From an uncultured Alphaproteobacteria bacterium (lineage in GTDB: Bacteria > Pseudomonadota > Alphaproteobacteria > HIMB59 > GCA-002718135), in assembly GCA_902621165.1 (NCBI GenBank), contig CACNKX010000002.1, positions 1 to 64,000 on the forward strand: DNA of 64,000 nucleotides, written 5' to 3'. The notes beneath the pieces were generated by a model that saw only the letters and a program-made list of their open reading frames with translations, was not told the origin of the DNA and ran no database searches. The translations under genes were made by a program, and so were the position numbers. This document shows, piece after piece, positions 9,096-12,954 of the stretch. Positions within the stretch are counted from its first letter, which is position 1. The number at the start of each line of letters is the position of its first letter.

Positions 9096-9461
9096 TCATT
9101 TCTTTAATTTTTCCCATTCAGCCATACCACCAGTGATATTTTTAACATTTTTAAGACCCATATCTTTCATAGTTTTAGTTGATAAAGTTCCTTGTCCACC
9201 CACACCACAAAATACAATATATTCTTTATCTGGATTTTCTCTAAAAAATTTATTTTCTAAAGGGCTACCTTCTGCCAAATAAAATTCAAGAAAAGCTCTA
9301 TCCAAATGAATTGCATTTCCTATTGTGCCATTTGAAAAACTTTCTTTATCTCTTACATCCACAAATTGTACATTTGGATCATTTATCTTTTCACTTGCTT
9401 CTGATGCAGAAATATTTTCTATTTTATCTTTGACACTCATCAATTCTTCAAATTTTTTCAT
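9096..9461 (-). CDS. Rhodanese-like domain protein
   Basis: This 121-residue protein is a single rhodanese domain. It has FVDVRDKESFSNGTIGNAIH (residues about 33-53), then VFCGVGGQGTLS with the candidate catalytic Cys near residue 85, and ITGGMAEWEK at the C-terminus. Such proteins carry persulfide sulfur on the active-site Cys and pass it to acceptors such as cyanide or thiols. The active-site loop CGVGGQG is glycine-rich rather than carrying the usual basic residues, so substrate preference may differ. The start is well fixed by an AAGGAGG sequence nine bases upstream, which is unusual in this window. A copy of the tmRNA-end repeat lies immediately upstream of that ribosome site. Confidence 0.85.
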   Translation of the reverse strand: MKKFEELMSVKDKIENISASEASEKINDPNVQFVDVRDKESFSNGTIGNAIHLDRAFLEFYLAEGSPLENKFFRENPDKEYIVFCGVGGQGTLSTKTMKDMGLKNVKNITGGMAEWEKLKK

Positions 9462-9477: not shown

Positions 9478-9484
9478 AATATGA

Positions 9485-9501
9485 GCGTTCTGTAGAACGA
9501 C
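9485..9501 (+). repeat. tmRNA-end-related repeat, copy R1
   Basis: GCGTTCTGTAGAACGAC is identical over 17 bases to part of copy R2 at 10494. Similarity extends on both sides: ATGAG precedes both, with a short deletion in R1, and an (A/C)ACT follows. It contains the inverted repeat CGTTC-TGTA-GAACG. R1 lies at the outer end of the ssrA-proximal islet, directly upstream of the rhodanese ribosome-binding site. Confidence 0.75.
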
Positions 9502-9682
9502 AACTTTGTTCATTCTTTCTAAAAAAACTTATTACCACATAACAAAGAAAATTAGTATTCCATAGCGTATATTACGCTTATATTTTTTACTCTCGAAGGA
9601 TAAATTTGATTTTATAAACAATTAAGTAAATATAATGTTTTCATATGATTTTATAAAAATCTTAATGTGGTAAAGAAATATT

Positions 9683-10357
9683 GTGAATAATATTTTTAAT
9701 AAAATTAACCTTTTGTTATGTATTTTGTTATGCTTGGTATTGGCAGGTTGTAAAATAGATTTTGAGGGTGATCTTTATACCTCAGATTTATTAACTATAG
9801 CTGAAGAAGGTGGATCAATTAATTTACCTATGGAAATAAAGTTTCAAGTATCTTCATGTGATGAAGATCTGACAAATTTAAATAATAAAATATCAACATA
9901 TTTTCAAGATTATAAACAAATAAGCTGTGGTACAGGTGAAGATTTTATGGATTACATTACCTCCAAAGTTTCTGTTCCTATTTACAATAATTTAGAGGAT
10001 TTCAACTTTGAAAATAAAAGCTTAATAGGTTACCAATCTACAATTTGGGAAGGTCAAACTAAACCATATGTCTATATCGTATTAAATCTTAATAAGTTTG
10101 AAGGATTGAGTGACTTTATTCAAAATGAAACATTCCAAGAATTGTCACTTGATGAAGGCATTTTAAAAGTAAATATTAATAATGATATTGAAACACAAAA
10201 ATTATCAATTTTTCCTTCTTTTGTTGATGGCGAGCCTATTGTTTTTAGAACTACATATGATTTAGAAAAAAGACAAAGTCTTTTAGTAGAGAGTTCAAAT
10301 ATTAGTGCAATGCATTTACAAGAAATTGGGTGGGCGCCATTATTTATATTTGAATAA
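9683..10357 (+). CDS. Putative lipoprotein of unknown function
   Basis: This 224-residue protein starts at GTG. The first 23 residues form a lipoprotein signal peptide ending LVLAGC, so the mature protein would start with a lipidated Cys at the membrane. It continues with KIDFEGDLYTSDLLTIAEEGG, then a conserved-looking domain in which three further Cys (in SSCDED and ISCGTG among others) could form disulfides. I do not recognise a named family. It lies alone between repeat copies R1 and R2, so it looks like cargo of a small inserted segment next to the tmRNA gene. About 220 bases upstream contain R1 and otherwise AT-rich DNA. Confidence 0.65.
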   Translation: MNNIFNKINLLLCILLCLVLAGCKIDFEGDLYTSDLLTIAEEGGSINLPMEIKFQVSSCDEDLTNLNNKISTYFQDYKQISCGTGEDFMDYITSKVSVPIYNNLEDFNFENKSLIGYQSTIWEGQTKPYVYIVLNLNKFEGLSDFIQNETFQELSLDEGILKVNINNDIETQKLSIFPSFVDGEPIVFRTTYDLEKRQSLLVESSNISAMHLQEIGWAPLFIFE

Positions 10358-10360
10358 TAG

Positions 10361-10504
10361 ATTTTTTTTAAATTATTTTTTTTGATTATTATTTTTATAA
10401 AAATTAGTTTTATTTACACGTATATAGTGCGTGATACTGGTGCATTTGCAAGAATGGATGAGCTAGAAGCCAAAATCTTGATTTATGAGTGGGGCGTTCT
10501 GTAG
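10361..10504 (+). pseudogene. Short open frame ending inside repeat R2, possible gene remnant
   Basis: This frame is open after the lipoprotein gene and ends at a TAG within repeat R2. Its last 24 codons read RDTGAFARMDELEAKILIYE and then WGVL, with a codon choice and GC level unlike the surrounding poly-T-rich DNA. A TTG at 10382 could start a protein of about 40 residues, but no ribosome site is visible. The most economical reading is that it is the tail of a gene whose 5' part was lost when segments were inserted or deleted here, with the repeat forming its 3' end. I do not recognise the family. Confidence 0.3.
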
Positions 10505-10514
10505 AACGACCACT
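10488..10514 (+). repeat. tmRNA-end-related repeat, copy R2 (imperfect palindrome)
   Basis: The 27 bases can fold as AGTGG, internal loop, CGTTC-TGTA-GAACG, then CCACT. The left part AGTGGGGCGTTCTGT matches the 3' end of the ssrA gene (copy R3 at 11288) over 15 bases. The right part matches R1 over 17 bases. It therefore links R1 and R3, as expected for a junction between two tandem insertions at the same attachment site. No T-run follows on either strand, so it is not a simple terminator. Confidence 0.75.
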
Positions 10515-10553
10515 AAATCATTATTAACAGAAAATAAGGACTTTTGGAAACTT

Positions 10554-10617
10554 CTTCGTAGAAACTTCGTAGTAAGTTTTCATTATTTTTCAGATTTCTT
10601 GTTTGGGTTCTTCGTAG
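10554..10617 (+). repeat. CTTCGTAG short repeats, left group
   Basis: CTTCGTAG occurs at 10554, 10565 and 10610. The first two are 11 bases apart and the third is next to the stop codon of the HEAT-like ORF. The first two sit between a GAAACTT and an AAGTTTTC, giving the group a partly palindromic outline. A matching group in the same orientation lies on the other side of the gene. Confidence 0.7.
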
Positions 10618-10622
10618 TTTTT

Positions 10623-11144
10623 TTATTCTTTAATTAAGGATAATAATTTTTTTGCTAGTCTAGAAACTGCCTTTCTCCTATCTTTTGAAAGTTTTTTAAT
10701 AATTTTTATATTTTCTTTTATTGTTTTATTATCAATTTTATTGAAAGTTATTAGAGCATTCATTGATTGACATAAAACAATCCAATCACTGGAGTTATTA
10801 AGATAATCAGATACAATTTTTTTTGCTTTTTTTTGTTCTTTATTTTCTAATTGATTAACTAATTCTGAAAATAATTGAGCGCAGGTCCATTGTGTGGAAG
10901 GTTGTTTTATTTTTGAAATTTTGTTTAAGAAAATATTTTTAAAATCTAAAAACCATTCTGGTTTTTGTCTAAATATTCTTTTAAAAGCATTTGATGTTCT
11001 TAATCTTACTATTTGGTCTGTGCTTGAATAACACTTAATTAACGAATTAATCCTATTTTTTTTAACAATAACATGTTCAGCAACTTTTATTGTATTACCT
11101 AGTGAATTTGGATTACCACCAGTTAGTTCAGACTCATAATTCAT
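10623..11144 (-). CDS. Small HEAT-like repeat protein
   Basis: This 173-residue protein is all-helical by pattern. The N-terminal ELTGGNPNSLGNTIKVAEHV motif followed by DQIVRLRTSNAFKRI, QPSTQWTCAQLFSEL, SSDWIVLCQSMNAL and DRRKAVSRLAKKLL is the recurring layout of a family of small HEAT/armadillo-type proteins of unknown function found scattered across bacteria. It probably binds another protein or a nucleic acid through its helical surface. No enzyme motif is visible. The gene is the only one in the segment between repeat R2 and the tmRNA gene, and groups of CTTCGTAG repeats lie just before its start and just after its stop. This placement suggests accessory, mobile origin. Confidence 0.65.
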   Translation of the reverse strand: MNYESELTGGNPNSLGNTIKVAEHVIVKKNRINSLIKCYSSTDQIVRLRTSNAFKRIFRQKPEWFLDFKNIFLNKISKIKQPSTQWTCAQLFSELVNQLENKEQKKAKKIVSDYLNNSSDWIVLCQSMNALITFNKIDNKTIKENIKIIKKLSKDRRKAVSRLAKKLLSLIKE

Positions 11145-11209
11145 TATAAATTAATTTGTTAAAATAAATCTAAAAATTAACATTACCTAATAATAAATTA
11201 TATATTTTC

Positions 11210-11240
11210 CTTCGTAGTAACTTCGTAGTAAACTTCGTAG
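11210..11240 (+). repeat. CTTCGTAG tandem repeats, right group
   Basis: CTTCGTAG occurs three times at 11210, 11221 and 11233, spaced 11 and 12 bases, so about one helical turn apart. They are in the same orientation as the left group at 10554-10617. They lie about 65 bases upstream of the start of the minus-strand HEAT-like gene. Helically phased short repeats are typical of protein-binding arrays (iterons or operators), but they could also be remnants of transposition. Confidence 0.7.
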
Positions 11241-11287
11241 AGAGTTTTCTATAAAAAATTATTGATATTACTGGATAATATTTAAAA

Positions 11288-11302
11288 AGTGGGGCGTTCT
11301 GT
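11288..11302 (+). repeat. Repeat copy R3 at the 3' end of the tmRNA gene (candidate attB core)
   Basis: AGTGGGGCGTTCTGT overlaps the end of the tmRNA coding piece (on the minus strand ACAGAACGCCCC then ACTTTTT). It is identical to the left part of R2. The 3' ends of ssrA genes are well-known integration targets, so this is the likely original site from which R2 and R1 were derived. Confidence 0.65.
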
Positions 11303-11520
11303 TGCTCGGTGCCCCTGACCGCGCTCACCTAGAACCTAGGCAGCAAGTGCTAATCTATTATCGTTAGCGTTTATAAAATAGCCCGATAACGGTGGTACAA
11401 TACCGGATAAAGTCTTTGTCTTTGAATTACCGTCAAACCTATTTCGTCCCCATATTTTGGTGGAGACGCCGGGTACCGCCCCCGGGTCCGAATAACTTAT
11501 TGCACAAAGCATTTATTATC
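11291..11520 (-). ncRNA. ssrA: Two-piece, circularly permuted tmRNA
   Basis: On the minus strand an acceptor piece comes first: GGACCCGG, a T-arm of CCGGG-GGCGGTA-CCCGG, and CGTCTCCACCA ending at 11458. After only six bases the coding piece starts at 11451 with GGGGACGAAATAGGTTTGAC. Its GGGGACG pairs with CGTCTCC of the other piece to form a 7-bp acceptor stem. The tag frame reads ANDNRLALAA then TAG (11368-11336), directly before a small CTAG hairpin. This is the permuted form known from Alphaproteobacteria, which is processed into two RNAs that rescue stalled ribosomes. The outer ends are approximate: the 5' end of the acceptor piece is not fixed, and a GGGGC/GCCCC stem followed by T-rich DNA marks the 3' end. 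The resume codon is probably GCT at 11368. This RNA is absent from the ORF track. Confidence 0.9.
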
Positions 11521-11542
11521 TTAGTTGCAAAGCAACGTAATT

Positions 11543-11571
11543 ATTATACCTTAAACTAATTATACTTGAAA
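11543..11571 (-). promoter_or_regulatory. Candidate sigma-70 promoter of ssrA
   Basis: On the minus strand TTTCAA (11571-11566) is followed after 17 bases by a perfect TATAAT (11548-11543). Transcription would start near 11536, just before a GTTGC-TTT-GCAAC hairpin that leads into the acceptor piece. The position fits the tmRNA precursor well. Confidence 0.5.
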
Positions 11572-11638
11572 GTTTTGTCTTGAGACCTAGCAATTAAAAA
11601 AAATATTGTTACTAATAAAGAGATAAAACAAACAAAAT

Positions 11639-12127
11639 ATGATTAAAGCAATAATGGCAATTGATGAAAAGGGAGGCATTAGTAAAGGCCAAAGTATGCC
11701 TTGGCCTAAAAATTCAATTGACCTAATGTGGTTTAAAGAAAATACTATAAATAATGTAGTAGTAATGGGTAGGAAGACCTGGGAAGATCCTTTTATGCCT
11801 ACACCTCTAAAATCAAGAATAAATGTTCTAATTACAAATAAAAATAAAGAATTAATTGAAGGAGCAGATTATTATTTAAGTGGAAACGTGAATAATGAAA
11901 TTCAAAATATTCAATCTGAATATACAAATAAGGATATTTTCATAATTGGTGGTTCAGAAATAATAAATTTGACATTTAACTTAATAGAACAATTTTACCT
12001 AACCAGAATCTACGGTAATTATAATTGTGAAAAATTTATAGATGTTTCTTTAATAGAAAATAATTTGAATATGATTAAAAAAATTGATGGCGATTCAACA
12101 TGTCATTTTGAAATTTGGGAAAAATGA
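11639..12127 (+). CDS. folA: Dihydrofolate reductase
   Basis: This 162-residue enzyme reduces dihydrofolate to tetrahydrofolate with NADPH. The usual motifs are in order: IKAIMAIDEKGGISKG at the N-terminus, MPWPKNSIDLMWFKE (substrate-binding helix), VVVMGRKTWE (NADPH loop) near residue 41, and IIGGSEIINL near 103. The length is normal for bacterial DHFR. Its stop codon overlaps the start of thyA as ATGA, so the two are translationally coupled. This fits their joint role, since thymidylate synthase turns methylene-THF into the dihydrofolate that FolA recycles. The product of codon 27 is Asp in SIDLMWFK, consistent with the catalytic acid of bacterial DHFR. Confidence 0.95.
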   Translation: MIKAIMAIDEKGGISKGQSMPWPKNSIDLMWFKENTINNVVVMGRKTWEDPFMPTPLKSRINVLITNKNKELIEGADYYLSGNVNNEIQNIQSEYTNKDIFIIGGSEIINLTFNLIEQFYLTRIYGNYNCEKFIDVSLIENNLNMIKKIDGDSTCHFEIWEK

Positions 12128-12954
12128 AACAATACCTAGATGCATTAAGATATTGTTATGATAATGGAACTGATGTTCAAAGCAGGGCAGGTAGCGTTAG
12201 AAAATCATTTGGGTTTCAAATGCATTATGATTTATCAAAAGGCTTTCCTGCTATAACAACTAAAAAACTAGCATGGAAATCTGTAATTTCAGAGTTACTA
12301 TGGTTTATTGAAGGTTCTGATGATGAGAGAAGATTAGCAGAAATTTTATACAATGATTCAAGAAAAAACTTAAAAGATAAAAAAACTATTTGGACACAAA
12401 ATGCTGAAGCAGATTATTGGAGGCCAAAAGCTCGATTTGTTGGTGATGTTGGCAAAATTTATGGTGTTCAATGGAGAAATTTTAATGGAGAAGATCAAAT
12501 TGTAAATTTAATCAAAGGACTAAAAGAAGACCCAAATGGCCGACGACATATAATTTCAGCTTGGAATCCTCCTGAGATAAAAAATATGTCATTACCGGCA
12601 TGTCATGCATTCTCGCAATTTTTTATTTCAAATAACAAATTAAGCTGCCAATTATATCAAAGATCATGCGATATGTTTTTGGGAGTTCCATTTAACATAG
12701 CTAGTTATAGTCTTTTGACTCACATGTTAGCTAGGGAGTGTAAATTAGAAGTAGGAACATTTATTCATTCTTTAGGAGATTTTCATATCTATAAAGAACA
12801 TTTTGAGCAGGTTAAAATACAATTACAAAGAGAGCCCAAAAAATTACCTGAGCTTCAGTTTGAAACAAAAAACTTTTTTAAATACAACGTTAATGATTTT
12901 AAATTAATTAACTATGAGCATCATGAAAAAATTGATGCTTTAATGAATGTTTAA
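12124..12954 (+). CDS. thyA: Thymidylate synthase
   Basis: ThyA methylates dUMP to dTMP using methylene-tetrahydrofolate. I place the start at the ATG at 12124 (MKQYLDALRYC), not at the track's 12115, because it matches the family N-terminus and gives the normal ATGA overlap with folA. The protein is 276 residues. Visible motifs are ELLWFIEGSDD, GVQWRNF, the active-site Cys in LPACHAFSQFF, the phosphate-binding QRSCDMFLGVPFNIASY, and HSLGDFHIYKEHFEQ. No thyX was seen. It faces mrp, whose stop lies within the last few bases, so the two genes converge tail to tail with a 4-base overlap. Confidence 0.96.
   Translation: MKQYLDALRYCYDNGTDVQSRAGSVRKSFGFQMHYDLSKGFPAITTKKLAWKSVISELLWFIEGSDDERRLAEILYNDSRKNLKDKKTIWTQNAEADYWRPKARFVGDVGKIYGVQWRNFNGEDQIVNLIKGLKEDPNGRRHIISAWNPPEIKNMSLPACHAFSQFFISNNKLSCQLYQRSCDMFLGVPFNIASYSLLTHMLARECKLEVGTFIHSLGDFHIYKEHFEQVKIQLQREPKKLPELQFETKNFFKYNVNDFKLINYEHHEKIDALMNV

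Follow-up and report, generated by a model that had tools for sequence, protein, structure and literature searches.

The interval between ssrA and a rhodanese gene in a streamlined marine alphaproteobacterium is, most likely, a tandem array of mobile cassettes without integrases, whose cores are recombined at ssrA by rare ssrA-specific integrases. The locus lies in the window, by which we mean the whole stretch of 64,000 nucleotides analysed. The attB target is the 3' end of ssrA, and three copies of this end (core ACAGAACGCCCC), of which R1 is the degenerate one, delimit two cassettes, one of 800 bp and one of 1009 bp. The features of the locus are as follows.

9096..9461, minus strand: rhodanese-domain gene, conserved right flank (Pfam PF00581; syntenic in relatives)
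9482..9493, minus strand: att core copy 3 (R1), attR towards the rhodanese gene, 2 mismatches
9482..10490, minus strand: cassette 2, 1009 bp, left end from another class, right end decayed
9683..10357, plus strand: cassette 2 cargo, 224-aa DUF7424 lipoprotein (Pfam PF24199, 3.1e-22)
10491..10502, minus strand: att core copy 2 (R2), inside the imperfect palindrome AGTGGGGCGTTCTGTAGAACGACCACT (10488-10514)
10491..11290, minus strand: cassette 1, 800 bp, class A, right-end core included
10554..10617, minus strand: cassette 1 distal arm-type repeats, three CTACGAAG, exact words at 10554, 10565 and 10610
10623..11144, minus strand: cassette 1 cargo, ORF for a 173-aa HEAT-like helical protein
11210..11240, minus strand: cassette 1 ssrA-proximal arm-type repeats, three CTACGAAG, exact words at 11210, 11221 and 11233
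11288..11575, minus strand: ssrA, permuted alphaproteobacterial tmRNA gene (Rfam RF01849, 219 bits; ARAGORN tag ANDNRLALAA)
11291..11302, minus strand: att core copy 1 (R3), ACAGAACGCCCC, tmRNA 3' end
11639..12127, plus strand: folA (DHFR), conserved left flank (Pfam PF00186)
12115-12954: thyA-like ORF, after folA

The repeats that bound the two cassettes are specific. AGTGGGGCGTTCTGT is found exactly at 10488 and 11288, and GCGTTCTGTAGAACGAC exactly at 9485 and 10494; shuffled sequences gave an expectation of 0.02 matches per repeat with 2-3 mismatches allowed. The sequence-only reading had reported this sharing, taken R3 for the 3' end of ssrA and seen a single gene in each segment. All of this was borne out, since the copies are exact and beyond chance, R3 ends a permuted alpha-tmRNA, and the one sizeable gene of each segment encodes the 173-aa helical protein and the DUF7424 lipoprotein, respectively. 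The palindromic core common to R1 and R2, CGTTCTGTAGAACG, occurs at these two places only in the whole 1.42-Mb assembly when up to one mismatch is accepted. The long palindromic identity of R1 and R2 is the right end of one cassette class and not a part of the tmRNA. R2 itself (10488-10514) is an imperfect palindrome of 27 bp for which a stable hairpin is predicted on either strand. As for the cargo, the 173-aa protein gave no match in a Pfam search, and single-sequence structure prediction returned a helical model of low confidence. The cargo family of cassette 2 also occurs in one relative (G005), in a different cassette context. With its decayed right end, cassette 2 of the window may be immobile.

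We then compared the locus in relatives, single-cell genomes of the AG- series recorded as 'uncultured Alphaproteobacteria', which we take to be GORG-Tropics cells. In the window's genus 102 genomes were searchable, and occupancy was counted on 44 relatives' loci having both flanks on one contig. Seven of the 44 are empty, a single intact core lying 21-23 bp upstream of the rhodanese start codon. The other 37 are filled with inserts of 560-6362 bp, most of which are split into segments that are each closed by a further core, and in arrays cut by a contig end 7 or more bounded cassettes can follow one another (G082). Insertion at the ssrA site, as the sequence-only reading had proposed, is thus well supported by empty, single-cassette and multi-cassette loci, and segment-free relatives do keep one repeat copy in the rhodanese-ssrA-folA interval. 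Genome-wide, the repeat is limited to ssrA arrays, a few sites excepted: outside the arrays we counted 1 core match (at most 1 mismatch) in about 498 kb, both strands counted. Given the stable fold of the R2 palindrome, the repeats might be taken for products of chance or for regulatory hairpins (terminators or operators) multiplied near ssrA. Across species, however, each inserted segment comes with one repeat copy and empty loci have a single one, and we regard the probability of this explanation as negligible. The content of the arrays turns over: 47 cassette types were distinguished across the 44 loci, 42 of them seen once, and none of the 10 locus pairs whose flanks are 97% identical or more had an identical array. 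The ssrA array of G082 (L085) exceeds 10 kb, and its cassettes repeat small secreted proteins starting MKTLLTLFVLFFSS.

The cassettes also share an internal anatomy, namely direct repeats of one short word inside both ends. Of 98 cassettes scored, 57 have an 8-mer that occurs three times or more and is represented at both ends, a pattern seen in 0 of 1960 dinucleotide shuffles and in 1 of 81 internal controls. For 24 of the 98, this arm test detected no word common to the two ends. The words are class-specific (CTACGAAG, TGCACACA, GTGCCGTT, ACGCGTNN and others) and lie about 50-80 bp inside one end and deeper at the other. Class-A words were present in 38 of the 102 genomes, nearly all at ssrA, and the reversed control pattern in none. 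The attP of phage tyrosine integrases has arm sites, for instance P and P' in lambda, and the arm layout of the cassettes appears to match such an attP. Bounded cassettes mostly measure 120-3676 bp, one reaching 11.2 kb, and of their ORFs of at least 100 aa, 121 of 170 run antisense to ssrA, the common HEAT cassette being an exception. Small, mostly one-gene cassettes in tandem with a site at every boundary, one of them (R2) imperfectly palindromic, could also suggest an integron-like system in which attC-like sites recombine as folded single strands through an integron integrase. However, the palindrome of R2 is absent from the ends of other classes, both ends contain long direct-repeat arms, the integrases found belong to the phage type and the prevailing antisense orientation of the cargo does not fit, all of which makes an integron extremely improbable.

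Integrase-bearing members of the ssrA family are rare, with two confirmed loci and an uncertain, contig-truncated one (G064). Among 84 representative cassette proteins, one was an integrase. It belongs to a core-bounded cassette of 3436 bp (G107) in which the integrase is split in two ORFs beside ArsR/ArsP cargo, and which has GTGCCGTT arms at both ends. Integrase-less cassettes of G070 and G089 carry TGTGCCGT arms, of the GTGCCGTT type found in the G107 element. In G088 an intact integrase of 336 aa starts 101 bp past the ssrA core; it matches Pfam PF00589 (1.8e-25) and has the R, K, HxxR, H and Y positions. Its identity to the pieces in G107 is 51-62%. In addition, relics of the 5' end of this integrase gene were found at +97 to +101 from the core in G076 (about 51 aligned residues, E 3.6e-11), G089 (26 residues, E 1.3e-6), G005 and G085, all in integrase-less cassettes and with unchanged leader spacing. 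At least some cassettes without an integrase therefore derive, by deletion or replacement, from ssrA elements that had one. An integrase with CTACGAAG arms, the class of cassette 1 of the window, was not found, nor was a tyrosine recombinase in the window's assembly, which is 83% complete. The sequence-only reading had supposed that the segments depend on an integrase located elsewhere; dependence on a tyrosine integrase is well supported by the arm repeats at cassette ends and the integrase relics. The ssrA element of G064 (L097) combines an Arc-like repressor, a serine resolvase and a contig-truncated 115-aa protein, P0001, and is possibly autonomous. P0001, considered as an integrase N-terminus, was set aside as evidence because it showed no significant family, phage or fold match.

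The sister genus has cassettes with the same core, class-A arms among them; the sister family is possibly HIMB59-like. There, one cargo family of 171 aa occupies cassettes of about 810 bp in three genomes (L315, L320, L323) with differing arm words, GCATACAC, GCAGACAC and GCATACAG, which suggests rapid arm turnover around a constant cargo. The chromosomal recombinases of the two genera are distinct. The usual one in the window's genus is a syntenic, divergent tyrosine recombinase of 352-365 aa (L144, L299-L301; G064, G028, G029), and no XerC/XerD-like match was found in this genus. The sister genus has two XerC/XerD-like proteins, of 329 and about 286 aa, and no relative of the 352-365-aa protein, which may replace the Xer system in the window's genus. 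Being syntenic and usually the sole tyrosine recombinase of a genus in which Xer-like proteins were not seen, this host protein could be thought to mobilise the cassettes in the manner of IMEX at dif/pdif modules. We judge this very improbable: the sister genus has cassettes, yet no relative of the protein was found there, the arms are class-specific but the protein shows no additional N-terminal domain, and elements with their own ssrA integrase exist.

Cassettes carrying the HEAT gene, present in 32 of 88 loci, allowed movement to be followed. Over 300 genome pairs the median DNA identity of this gene was 98.3%, compared with 88.5% for folA; it exceeded folA by more than 5 points in 243 pairs, and the reverse by that margin was seen in none. 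The HEAT cassette occupies the first or second place in the array, beside neighbours that vary, and in the congeners G005 and G022 the window's 800-bp cassette is matched at 800 of 800 positions. We also found it in a SAR11 cell ('Pelagibacteraceae', L269), at ssrA, with 798 of 800 positions identical (99.8%). This match begins and stops at the core, the flanking genes being about 65% identical in nucleotides and about 50% in protein, and the tmRNA of this cell differs as well (69% identical, tag ANESYALAA). A second SAR11 cell (L268) has a copy with 784 identities over 787 aligned bases; it lies next to rnhA, outside ssrA, at a core-like secondary site. Chimerism in this single-cell collection is reported as rare, about 1% by GUNC (PMC11247762), and such precise att junctions would be odd for a chimera. 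A 99.8% identical cassette in a distant SAR11 cell indicates that single genes are apparently swapped between common marine microbes, some of the commonest in the sea. The mobility advanced by the sequence-only reading is therefore well supported as horizontal movement, both by the identity of the HEAT gene relative to folA and by the SAR11 copy. The HEAT cassette was also observed away from ssrA in G083 (L255) and G031 (L258), in an island adjoining a tRNA-Gly gene, which in G031 also contains integrase genes.

These observations bear on another explanation, according to which the cassettes are dead fossils of old ssrA insertions and the arrays are exchanged by homologous recombination through the folA-ssrA and rhodanese flanks. 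The arrays are nearly without integrases, some cassette ends have decayed, R1 of the window included, and streamlined marine bacteria are known to swap islands via flank recombination (PMC10734472). Nevertheless, the same cassette occupies different array positions with different neighbours, it is found at a SAR11 ssrA despite a flank identity of only about 65% and, in a second SAR11 cell, away from ssrA, and the arm words are conserved at both ends. We therefore find the fossil explanation unlikely, although recombination via the conserved flanks could account for part of the spread within the genus. Neither a circular form nor a phage, plasmid or IMG/VR contig bearing a cassette was found; the HEAT cassette had no match in phages, plasmids or IMG/VR, and the class A and C arm words had none in IMG/VR. 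Matches to the ssrA core in IMG/VR, considered as attP, turned out to be phage tmRNA genes and unrelated sequences. Several AT-rich IMG/VR viral contigs (L122-L124, L127, L129, L130, L132, L134) have tmRNA genes of their own that end in the bacterial ssrA core.

For mobile cassettes served by ssrA-specific integrases, we propose the following mechanism. Each cassette would be a reduced integrative element, an attP surrounding, as a rule, one cargo gene, the integrase gene having been deleted or replaced. This attP would consist of the 12-bp core common to ssrA and of class-specific arm repeats inside both ends. Since the cassettes do not have the enzyme, another element of the same cell must supply it, probably as a tyrosine integrase from rare elements of the G088/G107 type, present now or transiently; the shared core and arms make such action in trans on integrase-less units plausible. 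The integrase would join the attP core of a circular cassette to the ssrA core, leaving the tmRNA undamaged because the core is its final bases. A newcomer would land beside ssrA, and older cassettes would be displaced outward or excised. Some vehicle presumably carries the cassettes between cells. It is possible, although we would stop short of calling it probable, that SAR11, the lineage of the window and the sister family of the latter have in ssrA a shared single-gene port. Integrase-less attP cassettes would then be pooled and circulate between orders on integrases from rare helper elements, the arm words serving as addresses that determine which cassette is moved by which helper.

In SAR11 and related streamlined marine bacteria few mobile elements have been recognised, and their route of gene gain is consequently an open question. 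The locus described here shows that single genes can be acquired precisely, rapidly and across orders at a defined port in the chromosome, and its anatomy of core, arms and integrase makes the mechanism directly testable. Screening for these motifs could redefine many unexplained accessory genes of ocean bacteria as cassettes.

Several known systems can be compared with these arrays. CIMEs, or cis-mobilizable elements (PMC5704250), arise by accretion at a common att site, and the cassettes resemble them as att-flanked, tandem elements without integration or transfer genes, probably decayed from integrative elements. The core stands at both cassette ends, as attL and attR, and once in empty sites; relaxase and conjugation families are absent from the top 25 families listed; and the integrase relics indicate decay from an integrative element, with no ICE/IME transfer genes seen in the parent elements. 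They differ from CIMEs in measuring 0.1-3.7 kb as a rule with usually one gene, in having as parents small integrase elements in which no conjugation genes were seen, and in that several arm specificities share one core. The sequence-only reading had called the cassettes satellite-like; their small size and single genes hold, but CIME-like, att-flanked cassettes describe them better than phage satellites because no phage or helper link was found. Indeed, regarding satellites such as PICI, PICMI and VEIME, no viral contig or phage record had the HEAT cassette. Integron cassettes and CALINs are short-cassette arrays needing an integrase in trans (PMC11389934). No match to the integron-integrase family above cut-off was obtained among the recombinases tested, and unlike paired attC boxes the site here is a double-stranded, attP-like one with direct-repeat arms. 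Compared with IMEX and pdif modules, the site is the end of ssrA and not dif-like. The tycheposons of Prochlorococcus, as described in PMC10872708, measure 4-200 kb and carry a tyrosine recombinase at tRNA-type genes. They share with our locus cargo elements at such genes, tyrosine recombinases and streamlined marine hosts, whereas the cassettes here are mostly of 0.1-3.7 kb and without recombinase.

Tandem ssrA islands bounded by ssrA repeats of about 20 bp have been described in Dehalococcoides (PMC3146451), where some of them lack an integration module and have been proposed to be CIMEs. Tandem islands are here too bounded by the ssrA 3' repeat, but those of Dehalococcoides are larger and use the serine recombinase DsiB, in contrast to short cassettes and a tyrosine integrase (PF00589). 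Additive flexible islands of Ca. Methylopumilus (PMC10872708) and Ca. Actinomarinales (PMC7771536) share, according to the available parts of these papers, repeated tRNA 3' ends, cassettes down to about 330 bp, strain-level turnover, mostly unknown cargo and transfer of gene cassettes between genera. Our locus likewise has variable cassettes, added at a single conserved tRNA-type gene with direct repeats of its 3' end. Relative to what those parts describe, it adds a tmRNA target, arm sites, integrase relics, an intact integrase and the occurrence of an almost identical cassette in another order. The text of a paper on flexible islands of the HIMB59 order nowhere uses the word tmRNA, and this locus is not mentioned in the available passages. 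The array is thus of the same kind as CIMEs, the Dehalococcoides ssrA islands and additive flexible islands. What is new is the tmRNA target in these alphaproteobacteria, attP-like arms on single-gene units, integrase relics together with their parent, and near-identical exchange with SAR11.
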